Part shown: piece after piece, positions 29,351 through 64,000 of the stretch
Position numbering within the stretch: the first letter of the stretch is position 1
Layout of the letters: the number at the start of each line of letters is the position of its first letter
Origin: Paenibacillus sp. HW567
GTDB lineage: Bacteria > Bacillota > Bacilli > Paenibacillales > Paenibacillaceae
Length of the DNA stretch: 64,000 nt
NCBI RefSeq assembly: GCF_000374185.1
Contig: NZ_KB910518.1
Location: 532,667-596,666, forward strand
Reading direction: 5' to 3'
Notes under the pieces: generated by a model
What the model was told of the DNA's origin: nothing
The model's database searches: none
The model's input: the letters and a program-made list of their open reading frames with translations, nothing else
Program-made: the position numbers and the translations under genes

Positions 29351-30640
29351 TCAGCCCAGCAGCCCCTCCCCGATATAGCCGCCTTCGCGGACGCCGGGGA
29401 AGCAGGCAAACACCGCGCTGCCGGTGTGGACCATATATTCGTTCAGCCGGTCGTTCTTGGCGAGCCGCTGCTGGATACTTACGAACTGCTTCACTAGATC
29501 CTTCTGGAAGCTGATGAACAAGAGACCTGCATCCAGTTGTCCTGTGGTCAGGTCCATTCCGCTGGAATAGGAGTAGGAGCGGCGGAGTATTTTTACCGTA
29601 CCGTCGCCATGTGCGAGGGCGGAATGGGAGTCGGGTGGGATGACCGGTTTGCCTGCTGAGTCTGCTGCCTCCAGGTTCAGCTTGGCGAATTCGTCGGTAG
29701 CTCCAATGGGAGCGCCGCTCTGCCGGTGCCGCCCGAAGGTGGATTCCTGATCGCTCAATGTGGACCGGTCCCACACCTCAATGCGCAGCCGCACGCGGCG
29801 CACGGCCATGTAAGTGCCGCCGTTCATCCAGGCGGGGCCTTCGCTCCCGCTCCAGACAACCTTGCGCATCTCGGCATCGTCCGTGACGTCCGGGTTGCCT
29901 GTGCCGTCCTTGAAGCCAAGCAGATTGCGCGGCGTGGCCCCTTTAGGGTCGGCAGCGCCTGTACGCTGGAAGCCTTCCTGCGTCCAGCGCAGCACGGCTG
30001 TGCCGCGGGCGATGCGGGCGAGATTGCGGATGGCATGGAATGCCACCTGCAGATCATCGGCGCAGGCCTGCACACAGAGATCGCCGCCGGACCACTGCGG
30101 CTCCAGGCTGTCTCCCGCGAATGCCGGGAGATCGGAAAGTGTGGACGGACGCTGCGAAGCCAGCCCGAACCGTCCGTCAAAAAAACCTGGCCCCACCCCA
30201 AAGGTCAGCGTGCACTTGGACGGGGTAAGTCCATCCGCTTCCCCTGTGTCCGAAGGAGGGAGATTAGGGTTATCGTTGACGCTGCCGATCAGGCTGCCGG
30301 AGGTTAAAGCTGCGGCGGCTGTAGTCCATGCTTGCAGCAGCTTTTTCACATCTGCCAGCTTCGTTGCAGTGAGGTCAAACGCTGCGAAGCAGAGAAAATT
30401 TTGTGCGGGTGTCAGAATACCCGCCTGATGAGTGCCGTAGAACGGAAGGCTGTCAGCACCCGAAGCTTGCGGAGGCGCTGCCGCCTGTCCTGCCGCCAGA
30501 ATACCGCCCACGCTTCCGCCGCCCAGCAGCAGCCCGAGGCCTGAGGCGCCGGTAAGCCGCAGCATCTCGCGGCGGCTTAGTTTGTGATCAAAGATTCCAG
30601 TGCTCTTGTTGTCGTCCTTAAGAAGAGGCTTCTTTTTCAT
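29351..30640 (-). CDS. efeB: Deferrochelatase/DyP-type heme peroxidase, Tat-exported
   Basis: 429 residues. A twin-arginine signal SRREMLRLTGASGLG with hydrophobic core leads the protein. The DyP signature GFKDGTGNPD is near residue 230, and the proximal heme region includes ARGTAVLRW and DAGLLFISFQKD. EfeB oxidises or extracts iron from heme outside the membrane for the EfeUOB system. ATG 30640 has GGAG 10 bases upstream; a GTG at 30649 overlaps the efeO stop (GTGA) and is an alternative. Downstream, array B intervenes before efeU. Confidence 0.92.
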   Translation of the reverse strand: MKKKPLLKDDNKSTGIFDHKLSRREMLRLTGASGLGLLLGGGSVGGILAAGQAAAPPQASGADSLPFYGTHQAGILTPAQNFLCFAAFDLTATKLADVKKLLQAWTTAAAALTSGSLIGSVNDNPNLPPSDTGEADGLTPSKCTLTFGVGPGFFDGRFGLASQRPSTLSDLPAFAGDSLEPQWSGGDLCVQACADDLQVAFHAIRNLARIARGTAVLRWTQEGFQRTGAADPKGATPRNLLGFKDGTGNPDVTDDAEMRKVVWSGSEGPAWMNGGTYMAVRRVRLRIEVWDRSTLSDQESTFGRHRQSGAPIGATDEFAKLNLEAADSAGKPVIPPDSHSALAHGDGTVKILRRSYSYSSGMDLTTGQLDAGLLFISFQKDLVKQFVSIQQRLAKNDRLNEYMVHTGSAVFACFPGVREGGYIGEGLLG

Positions 30641-30645
30641 CCCGG

Positions 30646-31533
30646 TCACACTCCTAGAATAGTCCCCATATTGGACAACGGCTCAGCCAAAGCATCCAGA
30701 TTCTGGCTTAATGTACGCACTTGGTCTTCCTTCAGCGTTTCATAGGACACATAACCATCCCCGGATTTAAATGGGGCCAGCTCAGTCAGCAGCGCATCGA
30801 ACCGTTCCCCGATGGTCTTTTCCAGCTCGGGATCTTTTTTTGCCAGTTCAGGCTTCAGCAGCTCATAAATTTTTTGCGCCCCTTCCACATTGGCCACAAA
30901 ATCATACAGGTCCGTATGAGAGTAACGTTCTTCCTCACCGGTTACTTTGGAGGAAGAGACCTCGTTCAGCAGCTCTACTGCACCAGTAACGAGCAGGCTG
31001 GCGTCAATTTCCACAGTCTCCACCTTGGCCCGCAGCAGTTGTGCATCCTTCAGCAGCTTATCCGCTACATCGGACATGCCTTCTGTAGTGTTGTTTTGCC
31101 ACAGCGCCTGTTCAATCTTATGGAAGCCGCGCCATTCGGCCGGATCTACATCATTTTCGCGGGCATCAATATTGGGGTCCAGATCTCCAAGCGCTTCGGC
31201 AATGGGTTCAATCCGTTCATAGTGCATGCGGGCCGGGGCATAGAGTGCCTTGGCTTCATCAAGCTTGCCTGCTTTTACAGCAGTGGTGAAGGCTTCGGTT
31301 TGTTTGACGAACTCGTCGCTTTGCTGGGTGGCATAGGCGCGGTATTGTTCGATTGCGGCTGTGAAGTCAGCGGCGGGAGCGGTATTGGCACTGCCCTCGG
31401 TAGCAACCGGAGCACTCGTCACGGCACCGGCACTTTCTGAGTTGCCACCTTTATTGTTGGTATTGCCCGCACATCCGGTGAACAGAATCGAAGCCGCAAG
31501 CAGACCGGCAGGAACAGCATAACTAAATTTCAC
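30646..31533 (-). CDS. efeO: EfeO-type (imelysin/M75) iron-binding lipoprotein
   Basis: 295 residues. A lipoprotein signal ends at LFTGCAGN, followed by a Ser/Thr/Ala-rich linker and an all-helical M75 domain (residues ~60-290) including EWRGFHKIEQALW, the family's HxxE-type site. No cupredoxin domain, so it is the M75-only form. First gene of a minus-strand efeO-efeB-efeU operon; a Fur box and promoter lie immediately upstream. Confidence 0.9.
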   Translation of the reverse strand: MKFSYAVPAGLLAASILFTGCAGNTNNKGGNSESAGAVTSAPVATEGSANTAPAADFTAAIEQYRAYATQQSDEFVKQTEAFTTAVKAGKLDEAKALYAPARMHYERIEPIAEALGDLDPNIDARENDVDPAEWRGFHKIEQALWQNNTTEGMSDVADKLLKDAQLLRAKVETVEIDASLLVTGAVELLNEVSSSKVTGEEERYSHTDLYDFVANVEGAQKIYELLKPELAKKDPELEKTIGERFDALLTELAPFKSGDGYVSYETLKEDQVRTLSQNLDALAEPLSNMGTILGV

Positions 31534-31563: not shown

Positions 31564-31578
31564 TGATAATCGTTATCA
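31564..31578. promoter_or_regulatory. Fur box upstream of efeO
   Basis: TGATAATCGTTATCA fits the 7-1-7 TGATAAT-N-ATTATCA dyad of Bacillus-type Fur with one mismatch. It lies between the predicted promoter (31591-31619, minus strand) and efeO. Confidence 0.85.
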
Positions 31579-40358: not shown

Positions 40359-40377
40359 TGAGAATGATTATCGTTAG
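40359..40377. promoter_or_regulatory. Fur box and promoter of the first AraC-lipoprotein fusion
   Basis: TGAGAATGATTATCGTTA matches Fur consensus imperfectly. It overlaps a plausible TTGTAG-N17-TAGAAT promoter (40353-40381). Confidence 0.6.
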
Positions 40378-40449
40378 AATAGGTGTTAGTGAAGAGGCAA
40401 GCTTGTCTTGCTGGTTTTGCATGCATAAAGGTTTATGGAAGGTGAAGCG

Positions 40450-42423
40450 ATGCACGTAGAAGAGCATGTTAAGCTTTGGAATCTGGCCTCGATCAAAATA
40501 TGGGATGTACGGCATAGGGTGTTGCGAGCCGGTGAACAAGTAAATGCTTATCGGCTGCCAGCCAGCGGGTTTTTATATACGATACGGGGCAGTGCCACGG
40601 TTACTTTGGATGACACCGCGTACGTTATTGGGAAGATGCAAGTCTTGCATGGAGGCAAAGGAGTATGTCTGGAGATTAGCCTCACGGAAGATTACTTCGA
40701 GTATTACTTGATTTTCTATCGGGCTAACTTGTCTTTGTCCAGCAGCCGTGAGAATCAAGCGCTGTTAAGGAGCCATTTGCCATTTCATATTCAGTATGCT
40801 TTTGCCCCAAGCTATCCCGTCGTCTTATACGACAAAGTCCAAAAAATAGACCAGTATTGGGAGCGGACAGATGCGCTTGCCAAATTTCAGGTTAAGACGC
40901 TGTTCTATCAGTTTATTAACGATTTGATGAGACAGATGAATACGCAGGTCGTTACAACTGTTAAGCCTAATCTGGTCGCTCAAGCGGTTCGTTATCTTCA
41001 TGAAAACTATGCTCTACCGATTATGGTCGATCCATTGGCTGAACTTCTGGACTGCAGCGCAGGACATCTGTCGAGAAGCTTCAAGAAAGAGACAGGAAGC
41101 AGTCTGATCGCATATTTAACCCGGATTCGAATGAACAAAGCAAAGGAGCTGTTGTTGCATACGGACGTTTCCCTACAGGAAATTGCTGAGGGTATAGGCA
41201 TCCCGGATGTTCTTTATTTTAACCGCTTATTCAAAAAGCATATAGGTGTGTCGCCAGGCCGTTTCAAACGGGATTATACGGGTCTGCCAGCGAGTCAGGA
41301 TAATACTATGGTGAAGTCAGAATTGTCCATTGTCAGGCATAAGCTTCGCGGTTATATTCGTATTGATGATGATAATCATTATCAATATAGAAGAGAAGGG
41401 GACTCACGCACACCTATGAAATCGAAACAATCCTTTCCGATGCTTTTGTTGCTTAGCTTTACGCTATTATTGTCTGCTTGCTCCTCCTCTCAGAATACTT
41501 CGACAGCAAGCGGAAATGGACAGAACAGCAGCAATGTGCAACCAACCGCTGTTGTTCAGCCAACCGAACAGCCGGCAGTACAGGAGAGGGTGATTAAGCA
41601 TGCATGGGGAGAAACCGTCATTAAGGGCGAACCTAAGCATATTATCTCATTGTTCCCGGCCGCGACTGACTATTTGCTTGCACTCGGCATAGTACCGCAG
41701 GCGGCATCGAGCAATGAAGAAGGCAGCGATCAGTTTCCTACTTACCTGGCCGACCGACTGAAAGGAAAACAAAATCTGGGTTGGCAAGTGGAGCCGAATT
41801 TCGAAAGTATTTTAGCCGCAGATCCGGATCTCATTATTGGTCAGGATTTCATGGGTGATTCCTTCGAGAGTCTCAATAAAATTGCTCCTACCTTGTTTGC
41901 GGAGAAAGTCAAGGATGAGCAAGGTATTATTCGCATGAAAACGAGCCTGCTCAAAATGGGGGAAATGCTAGGGAAGACGGAGCAAGCCAAGCAGGTTATC
42001 AAAGAATATGAGAAGCAGGCTGCAGAGGCTCGTGAGAAAATCAAGCAAGCGATTGGAAATGAGACAGTAATGTTCCTGCGCTTATCGGATAAAGAAGTCC
42101 GGTACTATAGTAAACGAAACTATGAGGTTCTTTATGATGACCTCGCTCTGCAACCTCCCGCTTCTATACCTGATCCGTCAGAATCTATGCAGATTATCTC
42201 TCTGGAGTCGTTGCCTTCTATTAATCCTGACCATATTTTCCTCCTGTCATCAGATCCGAAAGAAACAAGTGAATTACAGAAGACAGCGGTGTGGAAAGGC
42301 CTGAAAGCCGTTAAGAATAACCATGTTTATGTGGTTGACTACGGTTTGTGGTTCCAAGGCCCGGGCGGCCCCATCGGACAAAGTAAAATTATCGAAGAAG
42401 CGGTGCATTGGCTTACCCAATAA
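40450..42423 (+). CDS. AraC regulator fused in frame to a siderophore-type substrate-binding lipoprotein (first)
   Basis: 657 residues from ATG 40450 (GGAAGGTGA upstream). Residues ~1-165: cupin-like AraC sensor; ~175-280: two-HTH AraC domain (MVDPLAELLDCSAGHLSRSF; IAEGIGIPDVLYFNRLFKKH). After a ~40-residue linker, MLLLLSFTLLLSACSSS is a complete lipoprotein signal (residues ~331-347), then a FecB/FeuA-type class III binding protein (HIISLFPAATDYLLALGI; ILAADPDLIIGQDF). The fusion parallels Bacillus Btr, which binds bacillibactin, but Btr has no internal signal. A Fur box (41370-41384) and promoter lie inside the linker, and ATG 41416 would give a free lipoprotein of 335 residues. So it may yield two products. 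No permease is adjacent. Confidence 0.85.
   Translation: MHVEEHVKLWNLASIKIWDVRHRVLRAGEQVNAYRLPASGFLYTIRGSATVTLDDTAYVIGKMQVLHGGKGVCLEISLTEDYFEYYLIFYRANLSLSSSRENQALLRSHLPFHIQYAFAPSYPVVLYDKVQKIDQYWERTDALAKFQVKTLFYQFINDLMRQMNTQVVTTVKPNLVAQAVRYLHENYALPIMVDPLAELLDCSAGHLSRSFKKETGSSLIAYLTRIRMNKAKELLLHTDVSLQEIAEGIGIPDVLYFNRLFKKHIGVSPGRFKRDYTGLPASQDNTMVKSELSIVRHKLRGYIRIDDDNHYQYRREGDSRTPMKSKQSFPMLLLLSFTLLLSACSSSQNTSTASGNGQNSSNVQPTAVVQPTEQPAVQERVIKHAWGETVIKGEPKHIISLFPAATDYLLALGIVPQAASSNEEGSDQFPTYLADRLKGKQNLGWQVEPNFESILAADPDLIIGQDFMGDSFESLNKIAPTLFAEKVKDEQGIIRMKTSLLKMGEMLGKTEQAKQVIKEYEKQAAEAREKIKQAIGNETVMFLRLSDKEVRYYSKRNYEVLYDDLALQPPASIPDPSESMQIISLESLPSINPDHIFLLSSDPKETSELQKTAVWKGLKAVKNNHVYVVDYGLWFQGPGGPIGQSKIIEEAVHWLTQ
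41363..41391 (+). promoter_or_regulatory. Intragenic Fur box/promoter inside the first AraC fusion
   Basis: TGATAATCATTATCA (41370-41384) is a perfect 7-1-7 Fur dyad. TTGATG (41363) and TATAGA (41386) are 17 bases apart around it. AAGGGG and ATG 41416 follow, directly before the lipoprotein signal. Confidence 0.75.
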
Positions 42424-42453
42424 GGGAATGCAGCAGGAGGGAGATCAACCGAT

Positions 42454-43041
42454 ATGGAAGTATCAGCAATAGAGCTGCTAATTCGTGGAAGAAGAACAAT
42501 CCGTCAGTTTAATGAACAACCGCTATCGAAAGAAACGATCGTAGATTTGTTGGAAGCAGCCGTGTGGGCACCGGTGCATTCACGTAAGGAGCCGTGGCGA
42601 TTCATTTTATTTATGGAAGCGGGAAGGAAGCAATTTGCTGATGCAGTGCTGCATACGTTCTCCAAGGACGAGCTGGAGCGCTGGGGACCGAAGCTGCAGA
42701 ATGATTACTGCGAACGTATCCAGGCCCATCTGCTTATTGTTATTGAGGCTGATCCGAGACAACGGGAATGGGAAGACGCTGTGGGTGCAGGCTCAGCCCT
42801 TATTCAGAACATACAACTGCTGGCCTGGGAGCAGAAAATCGGGGTAGTGTGGAAGACGAATGAATATAATTTCGATCCCGACTTCTGCAGAATGACAGGC
42901 GTGAAGCCAGGTGAGAGAATCATCGGTACGCTTCATCTTGGTTATTTCGATCAGGATAAGATTCCTAAACCCCGTCCTCGTACACCTGCACGTGAACTGT
43001 TGACCTGTATCTCGGCCGCAGGGGGAGAGGAGCAGCAGTAA
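42454..43041 (+). CDS. Nitroreductase-family flavoprotein
   Basis: 195 residues, short nitroreductase (YdjA-type size). ELLIRGRRTIRQFN supplies the FMN-phosphate-binding Arg pair, EAAVWAPVHSRKEPWRF the Ser/Arg loop, and LIQNIQLLAWEQKIGVVW the second flavin-contact helix. Predicted FMN- and NAD(P)H-dependent. It starts 30 bases after the AraC-lipoprotein gene with AGGAGGGAG, so it is likely in the same iron-controlled operon, perhaps reducing ferric siderophores; that is inference. Confidence 0.88.
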   Translation: MEVSAIELLIRGRRTIRQFNEQPLSKETIVDLLEAAVWAPVHSRKEPWRFILFMEAGRKQFADAVLHTFSKDELERWGPKLQNDYCERIQAHLLIVIEADPRQREWEDAVGAGSALIQNIQLLAWEQKIGVVWKTNEYNFDPDFCRMTGVKPGERIIGTLHLGYFDQDKIPKPRPRTPARELLTCISAAGGEEQQ

Positions 43042-43096
43042 TAGCAGCACAAGGCGTCAGGATATAGCTGCTGTGCTTTGGAGTGGCATGTTTAAG

Positions 43097-43131
43097 CCTT
43101 CTTTTGCCTAAGGGCGAGGGGAGGTTTTTTT
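43097..43131 (+). terminator. Terminator of the first AraC-nitroreductase operon (gerE-terminator-like)
   Basis: CCTTCTTTTGCC-TAA-GGGCGAGGGGAGG followed by seven T. The stem and ~35 bases upstream of it (GTGCTTTGGAGTG..TTTAAG) are related to the gerE 3' flank. Confidence 0.8.
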
Positions 43132-43270
43132 GTTTCTAACAACATTATTACCCCCTTGCTGAGGAACTGCCAGTGTTTGCGTGGTATAAGGCAACCGAAT
43201 ATACTAATAGTAATTCTTTTGCCGGGCACCGAAAGTGCTCCTAATTACAGGGTGGAGGCAAGTCTACGGC

Positions 43271-45202
43271 ATGGACATCAATGATCTTATTGTTATATGG
43301 AATCATGTAAATTGCAAAGTCATAGATATTCGCCGCATCACGATTAGGGCTGGTGAATCCATTCGTTCCTATTATGTGCCTTCGAACCTGTTCCTCATGT
43401 CGATACGCGGTAATGCAACAGCTAAGCTGGGACGGGAAGTTTATCGCATGCAGCGATTTACTGTGCTTCATGCAGGTAAAGGTGCTTTGCTCGACATTGC
43501 CGCAGGCAGCGAAGGCCTTGAATACTATAGTGTCTATTATAAAGTGAGTGTTAATCCCCCGGTACCCTCAGAGCTTGCCGCACCATTCGGGCAGGTTCAC
43601 CCTTTGGATTATTCGTACAGCATAACGCCGGACAACCCGGTAGCGCTGCACCGGATATTGAGGGAAATGTTCAAGGATTGGGGAAAACGGCAACCCCTTA
43701 TGCATCTGCGTGTTCGGACTTTATTGTATCAGTTTGTGCATGAGCTGCTTCATCAAATGCAGATGCACGGTGTAAGCCCGGCTAAGCGGGACCTGGCCGC
43801 CCAGGTCGCCGCCATCATCCATGAACATTATGCGGAGTCCATTACGCTGGAATCACTATCGGAAAGTCTGAACTATAGCGTTCCCCATCTTTCCGCCTTT
43901 TTCAAAATCCGTACAGGGCTTAGCCCGATTGACTACTTAATCAAGGTACGTATGGATAAGGCAGCAGCGCTGCTGCTTGAAACGGATGCTACACTGAAGG
44001 AAATTGCAGATGGCGTAGGTTATCAAGATCCGAGCTATCTCGGTAGAATGTTCAAGAAGTATAAAGGAGTTTCTCCAATACGCTATAGAGAAGTGCATGC
44101 TGACAAGAAGAAACCAGAAGATCGTCCGGCCATGATCATGAAATCCTCCATTGTCCCTCCCGAGCCATTTAACTATACTAATGTCATTGATAACGATTAT
44201 CAGTACCATGGTATTGGAGAGGAAGATTTATTCATGTTCAAACATTCAAGGCCTACGCTGGCATCGGTATTGCTGCTAAGCTTCATTCTGGTGCTGAGCG
44301 CATGCGGCACGAACGGTACTGCGGAGACAACAGTCTCACAGCCAAGTCCAAGCGTTACGCAGGCTGCTGCGGAGCAGGCGCAGACCAAAATCGTTAAAAC
44401 GGTTAACGGTGAGGTGGAGGTCCCCCTTCATCCCAAACGAATTGTCGCCGGCGAGTATCTTGGCAGTCTGATTGCGCTTGGCATTACACCTGTTGGAACA
44501 TCCGATCATCATATTAAAAATCCTTATTTCCAGGAATATTTAAAAGATGTTGAGAACATAGGGGATGGTAATGGCAACGTAGAGAAAATTTTGTCGCTTG
44601 AACCGGATTTGATTATTATGGACGATTTCTACCCTGAGCTAAATGAGCAAATGTCAAAAATTGCGCCGACTGTCGTCGTTCCCTACGCTTCCTTAAAAAC
44701 AGTACACGAGGAGGTCGCTTATTTCGGCGAGCTACTCGGCGAAGAAGCCAAGGCGGAAGCCTGGCTCAGCGACTATGACAGACGTATGGCCAGTGCCAAA
44801 GAAAACGTGTTGAAGGTAATCCCTGCGGACAGCACATTTTCAGTTTTTGAGTTGAGTGAGAAAAGCTGGATGGCTGTCGGAACCAGCTTTGGCAAAGGCG
44901 GACAGCCGGTATACAATGGATTCGGCTTTAAGCCTCCAGCGGATATTGCCGCCGCATTGTCCGATCCTGGCTGGGTTTCATTCTCTGCCGAACTATTGCC
45001 AAAGTATGCGGGAGACTATATTATTCTAACCTCCGATTCAAAAACATTGGATGAACTTAAGGCGGACTCGATCTGGAGCTCGCTGCCGGCAGTCAAAAAT
45101 AATCACGTCTTTTTATGGACAAGCGAACGCTCCGGCTACTGGGACCCGATAGCTATTCTGAGCCAGACCGAAGAGTTGGCTGCATGGCTGACAAGCCTCT
45201 AA
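43271..45202 (+). CDS. AraC regulator fused in frame to a siderophore-type substrate-binding lipoprotein (second)
   Basis: 643 residues, same architecture as the 40450 gene: AraC cupin-like sensor, two-HTH domain (ITLESLSESLNYSVPHLSAF; IADGVGYQDPSYLGRMFKKY), linker, lipoprotein signal SVLLLSFILVLSACGTN (residues ~331-350), then a FecB/FhuD-type class III binding domain (KRIVAGEYLGSLIALGI; LEPDLIIMDDFYPE). ATG 43271 follows GGAGG by 12 bases. Inside the linker are TTGTCC-N17-TATACT (44151-44179), a Fur box (44188-44202), AGAGGAAG and ATG 44234, giving a 322-residue lipoprotein. A paralogue of the first fusion. Confidence 0.85.
   Translation: MDINDLIVIWNHVNCKVIDIRRITIRAGESIRSYYVPSNLFLMSIRGNATAKLGREVYRMQRFTVLHAGKGALLDIAAGSEGLEYYSVYYKVSVNPPVPSELAAPFGQVHPLDYSYSITPDNPVALHRILREMFKDWGKRQPLMHLRVRTLLYQFVHELLHQMQMHGVSPAKRDLAAQVAAIIHEHYAESITLESLSESLNYSVPHLSAFFKIRTGLSPIDYLIKVRMDKAAALLLETDATLKEIADGVGYQDPSYLGRMFKKYKGVSPIRYREVHADKKKPEDRPAMIMKSSIVPPEPFNYTNVIDNDYQYHGIGEEDLFMFKHSRPTLASVLLLSFILVLSACGTNGTAETTVSQPSPSVTQAAAEQAQTKIVKTVNGEVEVPLHPKRIVAGEYLGSLIALGITPVGTSDHHIKNPYFQEYLKDVENIGDGNGNVEKILSLEPDLIIMDDFYPELNEQMSKIAPTVVVPYASLKTVHEEVAYFGELLGEEAKAEAWLSDYDRRMASAKENVLKVIPADSTFSVFELSEKSWMAVGTSFGKGGQPVYNGFGFKPPADIAAALSDPGWVSFSAELLPKYAGDYIILTSDSKTLDELKADSIWSSLPAVKNNHVFLWTSERSGYWDPIAILSQTEELAAWLTSL
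44151..44202 (+). promoter_or_regulatory. Intragenic promoter and Fur box inside the second AraC fusion
   Basis: TTGTCC (44151-44156), 17 bases, TATACT (44174-44179), then TGATAACGATTATCA (44188-44202), a Fur dyad with one mismatch at about the +1 to +15 position. RBS AGAGGAAG and ATG 44234 follow. Confidence 0.75.
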
Positions 45203-49501: not shown

Positions 49502-49530
49502 TTGATAATCATTATCAATGGTGGTATATT
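49502..49530 (+). promoter_or_regulatory. Promoter with perfect Fur box for the marR-suf operon
   Basis: TTGATA (49502-49507), 17 bases, TATATT (49525-49530). A perfect Fur dyad TGATAATCATTATCA (49503-49517) covers the -35 and spacer, so iron should repress this operon. Confidence 0.85.
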
Positions 49531-49571
49531 GTTCACGAGTAAACAATAATATTGCTATTGAAGAGGAGTGG

Positions 49572-50084
49572 ATGAGCGCATTGGAATCAGCGGATTCTCT
49601 CAAACAACTGTTGTATGCGCAATACATCAGATTTCTGCATATGCATGAATCTCTTGCGGAGACGGAGCTTGATCAATTTCTCGTTTTTGCCCAAAGGGAG
49701 TCCATCAATAACTTTCCGCAGAGCATTACAGCGATTCACGTGATTGATTGTATCGGCCGCCATGAACCGGTCAACAGCACGACTATTGCGGAAATACTGG
49801 ATCTGTCGAAAGCCAGCATTACCAAAATCGGCGGCAGGCTTTTGAAGGATGGGCTCGTTAATCGGACACAAAAGGATGACAACAAGAAAGAGAGCTACTT
49901 CCAGCTTACTCCGCAAGGGAAAAAAATATTTGATCTTCATGCGCAACTGCACGAAATTGAAGCACAGCGCTTTTACCGTTTTGTGGATAAGTACTCAGCC
50001 GCTGAGCTGCAGCTTATCCGTAAATTTCTGCAGGAATACAATGTTGAACTGGAACTCAGATTAACAGAAGGAGTTGCTGAGTGA
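49572..50084 (+). CDS. MarR-family transcriptional regulator
   Basis: 170 residues. The winged HTH reads STTIAEILDLSKASITKIGG followed by RLLKDGLVNRTQKDDNKKE (wing). ATG 49572 has GAGGAG upstream; the longer frame from 49518 overlaps the promoter. Its stop overlaps the sufC start, so it is the first gene of a Fur-controlled suf operon and may sense iron, Fe-S or redox status. No Cys cluster for Fe-S binding is seen. Confidence 0.88.
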   Translation: MSALESADSLKQLLYAQYIRFLHMHESLAETELDQFLVFAQRESINNFPQSITAIHVIDCIGRHEPVNSTTIAEILDLSKASITKIGGRLLKDGLVNRTQKDDNKKESYFQLTPQGKKIFDLHAQLHEIEAQRFYRFVDKYSAAELQLIRKFLQEYNVELELRLTEGVAE

Positions 50085-50871
50085 TGAATACATGTCTGGA
50101 AATCAGTAATTTAAAAGCAGAGATTGAAGGAAAGGAAATTCTCAAGGGAGTGGACCTGAATGTGCGCGGTGGAGAAATTCATGTGGTCATGGGACCCAAT
50201 GGAACCGGAAAAAGTACCTTGGCCTCAGCGCTTATGGGCCATCCCAAATATGAGGTTACCGGGGGCACCGTTACAATGAACGGGGAGGATTTGCTGGCAA
50301 TGGATGTAGATGAGCGCGGACGGGCAGGGCTATTTCTTGCTATGCAATATCCGAGCGAAATCAGCGGAGTGACGAATTCGGATTTTTTGCGCAGTGCGCT
50401 TAATGCACAGCGTGGAGAAGGGCAGGAGATCTCATTAATTAAATTCATCCGCATAATGGAAGACAGCATGAAGGCGTTGGAGATGAATCCGGAGTTCCTG
50501 CACCGTTATCTGAATGAGGGCTTTTCCGGAGGGGAAAAGAAACGCAATGAAATTCTGCAAATGATGATGCTGAAGCCGCGGATTGCTGTGCTGGATGAAA
50601 TTGATTCCGGTCTTGATATTGATGCGCTGCGCATCGTGGCTGAGGGCGTCAACCTGCTGCGCAGCGATGAACGCGGATTTTAATTATTACTCATTACCAG
50701 AGACTGTTGAATTATATCAGACCAGATTTTGTACATGTCATGATGCAGGGGAGAATTGTAACATCGGGTGGTCCTGAATTAGCCGAGCGTCTCGAAGCTG
50801 AAGGGTATGACTGGGTTAGAGAGGAATATGGAATCGCCGATGAAGGAGATGCCGGGGAGGGGAGCTTATGA
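50081..50871 (+). pseudogene. sufC: sufC, Fe-S assembly ABC ATPase, interrupted by a one-base deletion
   Basis: The first 200 codons encode a normal SufC: Walker A GPNGTGKST, Q-loop AMQYPSEI, ABC signature FSGGEKKRNE, Walker B IAVLDEIDSGLD. At 50678-50681 only four T occur, where the family would read GFLIITHYQ; this creates a TAA stop after ERGF. Restoring one T opens 62 more codons ([20 protein letters not shown], then a C-terminus typical of SufC) and ends at 50871 in an ATGA overlap with sufD. The truncated product lacks the H-loop His (THYQ) and should not function as an ATPase. Recent mutation, sequencing error or recoding are possible. Confidence 0.88.
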
Positions 50872-52178
50872 AGACTGAACCTCGGGTACTGATCAAGCAT
50901 CTGGTGTCAGAGGAAGCGGGGGAGCGCCTGGAGCCGGAATGGCTTGCAGAACAACGTTTGGAAGCGGCAGCCCTGGCGGAAGCTCTGGATCTGCCAGAGC
51001 TGGAGAAGGTCCGGCTTCAAAACTGGAGCATTGGGGATTGGGGGCGGTATCGCGGACATGCTCCACTGGAAGGAGTCGAGGAACTGCCGTCATCATTGCA
51101 GCGCTGGGTGTCATCGGAGAATGTGCTGGTCCAGTGGAACTCAGGAAATGTCTTTAGCCGGCTATCCGGTCCCCTGAGAGAACAAGGCGTTATCCTGATG
51201 GATCTGGAATTAGCAGCTAACTTGTATCCGGAACGGGTTCAGCCGTATTTGATGCATGCGCTCAAGAGTGATGAGAATGTGCTGACGGCAGTACATGCGG
51301 CTTTGTGGAGCGGTGGTGCCTTCGTGTATGTACCTCCGGGTGTTCAGATTGAGGAGCCGCTGCAAATTTTGGCTTTTGCGGATGAGGCGGGCATCCGGTT
51401 TATGCCCCATGTGCTGATCGTGGCAGACGAGAACAGTTCGGTTACTGTAGTGGAGAACGTGACTTCTATGGGCCGGAATCAGGAACAGAGCCATAACGGT
51501 GTTATCGAGGTTTTCGTGAAAAGAGGAGCAAGGGCCTATATCTCATCACTGCATCACCTGAATGAAGCAGTTACCGACTTGACCTACCGGCGCGCGTATG
51601 TGGAACAGGAGGGCAGTGTGGAATGGATTCTGGGGGAAATGAATGAAGGCCATGCCATGAGCGATACAACATCCATTCTGCTGGGACGTGGTGCAAATGC
51701 CCGGCTTAAGACGGTTTCAGTTGGGGCAGGCAATCAAAAGATGCATATAACAACGAAAATTGTTCATGTAGGTCAAAACTCAATCAGTGATATGTTCATT
51801 CGGGCCGTAATGCGGGAGCAGTCCACAGCCATCTTGAACGGCATTACCAAAATCGAAAAAGGAGCAAAGGGCACTAACGGCCAGCAGACCGAAAAAATAC
51901 TGATGCTTCATCCGGAAGCCCGAGGTGATGCCAATCCGATTCTGCTGATTGATGAAGATGATGTGAAAGCCGGGCATGCGGCAAGTGTTGGGCAGGTCCA
52001 TCCGGAACAGGTCTACTACATGATGTCACGGGGAATTTCAAGAGCAGAGGCGGAGCGGCTGATTGTATATGGTTTTTTGGCGCCGGTCATTGATGAAGTT
52101 CCCTTGGAGGGTGCGGCAGATCAGCTTCGATTATTGGTGGAACACAAGCTGGGACAGGCGTCACCGGCAGTTAAATAA
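50868..52178 (+). CDS. sufD: Fe-S cluster assembly scaffold protein SufD
   Basis: 436 residues. SufBD core: [24 protein letters not shown]-like [40 protein letters not shown] and the C-terminal [20 protein letters not shown]. The N-terminal ~110 residues are helical and divergent, as in SufD. Starts in the stop of restored sufC (ATGA). SufS and SufU are not encoded here, so cysteine desulfurase must come from elsewhere. Confidence 0.9.
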
Positions 52179-52202
52179 AATGGCTTAAGGAGGTAAAGGA
52201 GC

Positions 52203-53600
52203 ATGCCCAAACAATTGTCCGATCCGGAAGAGTATCAGTATGGGTTCCGGGATAATCACGAATCCGTGTTTCGGTCCGGTAAGGGATTGACCCGCGATAT
52301 TGTAGCAACCATCTCACAAATGAAGGGCGAGCCCGGGTGGATGCTGGATTTCCGCCTGAAATCACTGGAGCTGTTCCACGGCATGGCGCTGCCCGAGTGG
52401 GGCGGTAATCTGAAAGAGCTGGATTTTAATGAAATCCAGTATTATGTGAAGCCTTCGGAGCATCAGGGGAAGACCTGGGAGGAGGTTCCCGCAGAAATCA
52501 AAGCCACCTTTGATAAGCTGGGCATTCCCGAAGCGGAGCAGAAGTTCCTGGCCGGGGTGTCCGCACAATATGAGTCTGAGGTTGTGTACCACAGCATTCA
52601 GAAGGATTTGGAGGCACAAGGTGTTATTTTTACAGATACAGATACGGCCTTAAAGGAATATCCGGAGCTGTTCAGAGAGCATTTTGCGACGATTATTCCA
52701 CCATCTGACAACAAATTTGCGGCGCTTAATAGTGCAGTATGGTCTGGCGGCAGCTTCCTCTATGTTCCCAAAGGGGTAAAGTGCGACGTTCCGCTTCAAG
52801 CGTATTTCCGGATTAATTCAGAAAATATGGGACAGTTTGAACGGACGCTGATCATCTCAGAGGAAGACAGCTTTGTGCATTATGTAGAGGGCTGTACAGC
52901 GCCAATCTACAGTACGAACTCCCTGCACAGCGCAGTGGTTGAAATCATCTGCCGGAAAAATTCACGTATGCGCTATACAACCATCCAAAACTGGGCGCCC
53001 AATATCTACAATATGGTAACCAAAAGGGCGGTTGCCGAAGAAAATGCAACGATGGAATGGGTGGATGGCAATATCGGCTCCAGACTGACGATGAAATATC
53101 CTTCCGTTATCTTGAAAGGCCGTGGAGCCAAAGGCTCAGTGCTCTCCATTGCCGTAGCCGGTAAAGGCCAGCATCAGGATGCCGGAGCCAAAATGATTCA
53201 TCTGGCACCAGAAACGACCTCCACCATTATTTCGAAATCAATCAGCAAGCATGGAGGGAAGGTGACCTACCGGGGACTTGCGTCATTCAGCCGAGACTCG
53301 GCCAGTTCCAAATCGAGTGTTAAATGTGACACCCTGATTCTTGATAATCAATCTACCTCAGATACGATCCCTTACAATGAAATCCGGAATGAATCCATTA
53401 CCCTAGAGCACGAAGCGACTGTATCCAAAGTTTCCGAGGAGCAGTTGTTCTATTTAATGAGCCGGGGATTGACGGAAGAAGAAGCCACTCAAATGATTGT
53501 AATGGGCTTTATTGAACCGTTCACTAAAGAGCTTCCTATGGAGTACGCAGTGGAAATGAATCGGCTGATCAAATTGGAGATGGAAGGAAGTATCGGATAA
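52203..53600 (+). CDS. sufB: Fe-S cluster scaffold protein SufB
   Basis: 465 residues, the usual SufB length. Motifs: [18 protein letters not shown] start, [40 protein letters not shown] (conserved Cys), [19 protein letters not shown], and [20 protein letters not shown] with Cys ~residue 378 near the cluster site. RBS AAGGAGG and AAAGGAG upstream. Order C-D-B without S and U differs from the standard Firmicute sufCDSUB operon, suggesting an accessory set. Confidence 0.95.
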
Positions 53601-63944: not shown

Positions 63945-64000
63945 TGCCTGTGAGAATAAATATCAATAAAAAAAGCTGAAATGGAAACGGAAACATGATA

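Follow-up and report, generated by a model that had tools for sequence, protein, structure and literature searches.

The siderophore-binding lipoproteins FeuA, SirA and FhuD share a class III fold, a lipobox and two docking glutamates, and all three are encoded by stand-alone genes. One-component membrane regulators of the ToxR and CadC type hold a DNA-binding part inside the cell and a sensor outside. Btr (YbbB) is described in PMC3896406 as an AraC regulator with a putative FeuA-like domain, and the account given for Bacillus subtilis in PMC6529636 has feuABC activated by Btr and repressed by Fur; as these two sources present it, the receptor genes lie near Btr and are controlled by both Fur and Btr. 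For Shigella, PMC5101355 reports one AraC-family gene that yields two proteins in the same frame, VirF30 and VirF21, with a gene-internal promoter for the shorter one. Here we describe two genes of Paenibacillus sp. HW567, found in a stretch of 64,000 nucleotides (contig NZ_KB910518.1, positions 532,667 to 596,666; hereafter the window). Each of them, ORF1 and ORF2, is one unbroken open reading frame (ORF) on the + strand that passes from an AraC part through a linker and a lipoprotein signal into a class III siderophore-binding domain. From sequence comparison, we consider it quite probable that each is one gene with two products, namely a Btr-like full-length sensor and activator, and a lipoprotein receptor made from an internal promoter that is controlled by Fur and by the activator itself.

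The window genes are like Btr in that an AraC part is followed by a siderophore-binding domain. They differ from it in that the receptor of the Btr system is a separate gene, and the Btr-like genes examined here have no internal signal, which agrees with what an earlier note on this DNA had said of Btr. Unlike FeuA, SirA and FhuD, the frames of the window continue upstream into a regulator. The short form of VirF keeps the DNA-binding part and represses virF, whereas the short form from the window genes is a predicted exported receptor without a DNA-binding part. The topology of ToxR and CadC is possibly shared by the full-length proteins, but the window genes have a predicted cleavable lipoprotein signal and would give a separate short product. 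The parts are known, both as fusions of AraC with a binding domain and as gene-internal promoters in AraC genes, and the combination appears to be a new variant of the Btr-like theme that would work like Btr. No description of this arrangement, or of its retention across a bacterial order, was found in the titles and abstracts of the open-licence PMC papers that our searches listed.

ORF1 (40435-42423, 662 amino acids) and ORF2 (43271-45202, 643 amino acids counted from the ATG at 43271, or 12 residues more from an alternative listed start, the GTG at 43235) both matched the Pfam models HTH_18/HTH_AraC and then Peripla_BP_2, all over their gathering scores. The open frames and these domains bear out the continuous path from AraC part to binding domain that the earlier note had read in both genes. 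It had also seen the arrangement twice with diverged sequence, which holds as well, and the genome in fact carries four signal-bearing fusion genes, two beyond the window pair. The PF12833 helix-turn-helix is over its gathering score in all four proteins, placing them in the AraC/XylS family, and their assignment to the class III siderophore-binding proteins rests on a PF01497 domain over its gathering score together with the two docking glutamates. As in bacterial lipoproteins, a hydrophobic h-region and a lipobox cysteine follow the internal start, with cleavage and lipidation predicted, and as in a Btr-type sensor, the AraC DNA-binding part and the siderophore-binding domain lie within one chain. 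Against the Btr equivalog model NF049932, the four proteins score 151.8 and 98.6 (the two window proteins), 86.6 and 106.5 bits, all below its cutoff of 900. The same genome also has Btr-like fusions of about 550 residues in which the internal signal is absent. The nearest solved structures to the binding domain of ORF1 by sequence are SirA (3mwf) and FeuA (2why), and SirA also ranks first by fold in Foldseek; for ORF2 the nearest by sequence is 3hxp, named FhuD. The domains are accordingly called SirA/FeuA-like and FhuD-like. An AlphaFold model of ORF1 made with 29 sequences (mean predicted local distance difference test score, pLDDT, 79; predicted template modelling score, pTM, 0.45) consists of two confident modules, a low-confidence linker at residues 285-333 and a helix at residues 334-347, at the signal.

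A base-by-base check of both linkers found the same order of elements, all on the + strand: a promoter-like pair of hexamers 17 bases apart comes first, followed by a Fur box and then by an internal ATG and the signal, which ends at the lipobox cysteine. The pair in ORF1 (41330-41358) consists of TTGTCA at 41330-41335 and TATATT at 41353-41358 and is also marked by k-mer enrichment in the family, and that in ORF2 (44151-44179) consists of TTGTCC at 44151-44156 and TATACT at 44174-44179. The Fur box of ORF1, TGATAATCATTATCA, lies at 41370-41384 in the codon phase T-GAT-AAT-CAT-TAT-CA and agrees with the consensus at 14/14 positions, while that of ORF2, TGATAACGATTATCA, lies at 44188-44202 and agrees at 13/14. 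In ORF1 the internal ATG at 41416 opens a predicted type II signal peptide (41416-41481) that ends at lipobox Cys349, encoded at 41479-41481; in ORF2 the ATG at 44234 opens a predicted signal peptide (44234-44305) that ends at lipobox Cys345, encoded at 44303-44305. The Fur dyads stand at the coordinates given in the earlier note, and the promoter-like pairs and the ATG codons ahead of the signals are present as it had described. To these, and to the four genome copies, our analysis adds a 12/14 Fur box 5' of ORF1 (40359-40373, + strand) and a direct repeat in the linkers. We regard this 22-base-pair (bp) repeat as a putative AraC operator; it occupies 41303-41335 in ORF1, with two half-sites 22 bp apart, and 44124-44156 in ORF2, and its second half overlaps the -35 element. 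An operator profile trained on family linkers, the family of the two window linkers included, ranks these two sites first on both strands of the window at 24.0 and 23.3 bits, the next match scoring 13.4. Fur-like sites of at least 12/14 number seven in the window, two of which overlap one another at the ORF1 box, versus a mean of 0.0 over 20 mononucleotide shuffles.

We propose that a promoter 5' of the AraC part, often itself Fur-controlled, would give the full-length fusion, and that this fusion would work like Bacillus Btr, its binding domain sensing the ligand and its AraC part acting as the activator. The activator would bind the 22-bp direct repeat within the coding sequence of the linker and turn on the internal promoter, which Fur would repress when iron is plentiful. 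A short messenger RNA, translated from the internal ATG, would then supply a lipoprotein that docks on a siderophore permease of the ATP-binding cassette (ABC) type. As sensor and receptor would be one binding domain, their specificities would stay matched, and the in-frame connection may be under selection because the fusion is needed for sensing. In this scheme we infer the binding of the operator by this AraC part, the activity of the internal promoter, and the ligand sensing and location of the full-length protein. The first reading of the earlier note, a regulator and a separate receptor from one locus, is strongly supported by comparison, because the internal operator, promoter and Fur box are conserved, the docking glutamates are kept, and a receptor gene lies nearby mainly where the signal is absent; only its description of the receptor as iron-induced should be changed to iron-repressed, given the role of Fur.

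The fusion is widespread. A search with the AraC part only, which is independent of what lies 3' of that part, recovered, from 61 genomes of the genus, 83 matches at E<=1e-60. Of these, 79 fall within open frames of 620 codons or more, among which a few have a stop inside the AraC part or, at 622-623 codons, no signal. Across the order, 141 of the 150 matches listed (149 genomes) are in open frames of that length. The shorter matches from these searches have frames of 581-598 codons, without a signal where examined, and of 349, 370, 430, 459, 464 and 549 codons. Named carriers of the fusion are Paenibacillus, Cohnella and Lysinibacillus, and contigs of Lysinibacillus (locus L043), Paenibacillus (L034) and Cohnella (L050) have two signal-bearing fusions near each other, as in the window. 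Pooled, the loci comprise 171 unique complete fused genes that have a lipobox, and five more that lie at a contig edge or have only part of the AraC region; with this number, the idea that the fusion arose by chance or from a sequencing error was rejected. Among plasmid records, 13 had a match, none of which covers 80% of the query, and the best place of each match is the binding-domain part. For the analysis of the linkers, 176 were collapsed by identical linker protein to 173 unique ones, a set that leaves out members below 190 bits, seven in which no lipobox matched, and L247, which has an X in its linker. One subset of the loci was found partly with search patterns, among them the Fur-box peptide and a motif that contains one of the docking glutamates. 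Key counts were therefore repeated without the pattern-found loci, which leaves 127 unique linkers, all obtained by whole-genome searches.

Of the 173 linkers, 172 hold a Fur box that matches at 11/14 positions or more, always in one codon phase (without the pattern-found loci, in 126 of 127, and 126/126 in one phase). Three of its wobble positions are T in 121, 124 and 126 of 126 linkers, the codons being mostly NAY, and its first base, the wobble of the preceding codon, is T in 125 of 126; NAY codons in the AraC and binding domains end in T in 63-74% of cases. The fourth wobble is T in 75 of 126 only, where TGAGAAT and TGAAAAT variants occur. The central base of the box, which is free in the consensus, falls on codon position 1, where it varies and alters the amino acid. 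We rejected the possibility that the box is a by-product of a conserved peptide, because its wobbles hardly vary, whereas the free base at codon position 1 does. Of 118 linkers, 47 have the direct repeat at 22 bp versus 3.7 expected (37 of 90 without the pattern-found loci), and this spacing stands alone among the 24 spacings tried (12-35). The operator profile found no strong site 5' of the AraC starts of 89 genes, with a maximum of 9.4 bits, and an operator placed upstream of the AraC start was thus rejected. A Fur box of at least 12/14 does occur 5' of the AraC part in 105 of 170 family genes. Divergence was measured in 72 independent pairs of relatives. Outside the Fur box, the synonymous divergence (pS) of the linker is 0.22-0.29 versus 0.46-0.47 in the domains, and its non-synonymous divergence is 0.15-0.20 versus 0.12 in the AraC part and 0.07 in the binding domain, with substitution rates alike at the three codon positions. 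The amino acids of the signal peptide are conserved, with a ratio of non-synonymous to synonymous divergence (pN/pS) of 0.23. Judged by these patterns, the linker serves as regulatory DNA and is translated as well.

Selection appears to keep this translated frame open, as the earlier note had proposed. It had called for a check of whether the frame stays open in orthologues while the sequence diverges, and a linker stop was observed in 0 of the 72 pairs, versus 34.8 expected with substitutions placed blind to frame and the Fur box spared, and 31.5 expected with the observed positions kept and the base redrawn. The +1 and +2 frames of the linker hold stops in 130 of 172 and 172 of 172 cases. 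As the pairs were drawn from fused genes, the searches with the AraC part only were needed alongside, and both lines of evidence support selection on the frame. In four loci (L065, L128, L174 and L227) the AraC part is interrupted and the linker, signal and binding part are open, which is consistent with an independently expressed lipoprotein, sequencing error being the alternative. A further locus, L286, is broken within the binding part, and L249 and L288 lie in short frames.

Relatives that lack the signal or the fusion were also compared. The no-signal fusions include ten linkers that score only 6-11 of 14 for the Fur box. In a quick tree of the AraC part with a midpoint root, which does not contain the Btr outgroup and cannot show whether fusion or splitting came first, the no-signal fusions are placed among the signal-bearing ones; its rows L037, L189, L240 and L247 are tagged 'nosig' only because their linkers were de-duplicated or dropped. 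A separate gene for a siderophore-binding protein lies within 1.5 kilobases (kb) of 14/16 no-signal genes versus 1/45 signal-bearing genes (42 loci), where the 16 are those with flanks among 21 frames of 581-598 codons in the AraC-only matches listed, and where the flank is shorter than 1.5 kb for six of the 45 and one of the 16. The operator profile has a match 5' of this separate lipoprotein gene in 12 of the 14 loci, at 10.8-21.6 bits, compared with a 99th percentile of 6.2 in shorter coding windows of the binding domain and with the maxima of 9.4 at AraC starts and 13.4 elsewhere in the window. In L301-L306 the site lies between two genes, and for the matches in L311-L316 an overlap with other ORFs is possible. 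In 10/14 loci there is also a Fur-like site, matching at 11/14 positions or more, ahead of the separate lipoprotein gene. Three loci (L167, L168 and L169) have a hydrophobic stretch without a lipobox, seemingly a decayed signal, and no good Fur box, and they are possible intermediates towards a cytosolic sensor. In unfused relatives (L072, L073, L090 and L091, and also L257 and L260), the AraC stop codon is followed by a promoter, a Fur box and the lipoprotein. The operator is present in 4/5 unfused loci scanned (14.0-17.4 bits), where it overlaps the AraC stop codon.

According to PMC3741162, two glutamates dock class III binding proteins on the permease, and we set their positions by alignment to FeuA. 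Both are present in 169/170 signal-bearing fusions (123/124 without the pattern-found loci), 20/20 separate binding proteins, 5/16 no-signal fusions and 4/24 Btr-like rows, where 2/172 fused and 1/17 no-signal rows were gapped and unscored, and where one Btr-like gene of the HW567 genome appears twice (L021 and L031), giving 3/23 genes. Since the signal-bearing fusions retain the docking glutamates, their binding domain looks to be selected as a transport receptor too.

Several observations weigh against one gene with two products. The full-length protein bears an export signal, which could misdirect the sensor domain. One linker, L243, has no Fur box, and the Fur score tested against synonymous shuffles gene by gene gave a weak result (24/173 at p<=0.05), because the encoded peptide already nearly dictates the box; counting the wobble bases tests this better. 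The earlier note had claimed an internal ribosome-binding site in each linker, of which a candidate remains in ORF2 (GGAGAGGA, 44216-44223, + strand), but the match in ORF1 is weak, and Shine-Dalgarno matches across the family are not above synonymous-codon shuffles. The amino acids of the linker are weakly constrained and its DNA strongly, so that the constraint on the ratio of non-synonymous to synonymous rates (dN/dS) that the note had looked for in the linker frame does not appear in that simple form; the plain dN/dS case for the linker as protein was unsupported, and we replaced it by the stop-avoidance tests. An orthologue with a break between the two parts, named in the note as refuting its view, does occur, but rarely: L074 has a stop within the linker and L181 a frameshift within the signal, so the fusion can be lost. 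The complementarity with neighbouring genes also has exceptions, as L034 is a signal-bearing fusion with a separate binding-protein gene beside it, and L308 and L310 have neither signal nor separate gene. No operator precedes the lipoprotein gene in L307 and L309, five of the twelve operator matches come from one clade (L312-L316) and score only 10.8-12.1 bits, and the unfused L097 has neither an operator nor a good Fur box. The independent no-signal or unfused lineages are few, and in the tree two of the three no-signal groups have long branches.

In the full-length protein the signal may go unused, serve as a membrane anchor or be cleaved. It is possible, though not probable, that this protein escapes cleavage and remains in the membrane, its AraC part inside and its binding domain outside, and senses ferri-siderophore directly, the short lipoprotein being made too; the topology would be that of the second, ToxR-like reading in the earlier note. 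The hydrophobic stretch between the domains is preceded by basic residues, the AlphaFold model has two modules joined by a low-confidence linker with a helix at 334-347, and the fusion frame is retained, all of which would fit such a topology. However, the stretch (a median of 17 charge-free residues) is the same as in 17 separate lipoproteins and ends in a cleavable lipobox, and the no-signal members that lie among the signal-bearing ones in the tree keep the fusion without the segment. We view as doubtful the fuller scheme in which this membrane-spanning form would sense siderophore at the surface and switch on an operator in its own coding sequence, the lipoprotein form would import the same ligand, and processing of the signal could set the ratio of sensor to receptor. 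It is unlikely that the full-length protein is a precursor, exported and cut by signal peptidase II into a membrane-bound AraC fragment and an ordinary lipoprotein, with the fusion serving this processing rather than sensing. The lipobox is intact in the full-length frame and the signal-peptide amino acids are conserved, as a precursor would need, but separate translation would supply the lipoprotein equally, which leaves the kept frame poorly explained, and the related no-signal fusions cannot be so processed yet keep the fusion. Finally, two ordinary neighbouring genes that lost a stop codon by accident, with only their separate functions of importance and read-through incidental, would be in keeping with the unfused relatives, which have the same gene order and promoter, the weakly constrained linker amino acids, the four loci that keep linker and binding part with a broken AraC part, and the breaks in L074 and L181, but this is very unlikely, as stops are avoided far beyond expectation and few frames are broken among the AraC-only matches listed across the order.

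Between the two fusions lies a gene of the nitroreductase family (42454-43041, + strand; PF00881), which has no assigned role in our model; a Bacillus pumilus nitroreductase (yfhC) is tabulated under fur in PMC3896406. Elsewhere in the window, a 14/14 Fur box (49503-49517) lies directly before a MarR-like gene, an ABC ATPase gene and two SufB/D-family genes (49518-53600). A 13/14 Fur box (31564-31578) lies just 5' of an imelysin (Peptidase_M75) gene followed by a Dyp-type peroxidase gene (29351-31533, - strand), a pair that we take to be Efe-like iron uptake. A 12/14 Fur-like site is found at the window edge (63951-63965), and the gene it would serve may lie outside the window.

If our reading of one gene with two products is true, these loci would form a compact circuit, with one reading frame that contains regulator and receptor as well as the operator, the promoter and the Fur site. 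Sensor and transporter specificity would be unable to drift apart, because they would reside in one domain. The Paenibacillus genomes searched contain many of the fused genes, each of which could easily be mistaken in annotation for a regulator only or a transporter part only. The series of unfused genes, fusions with a signal, and fusions without a signal beside a separate receptor suggests a possible route by which cytosolic Btr-like sensors could have originated, and it makes the dual-coding constraint of a protein frame and regulatory DNA measurable in bacteria.

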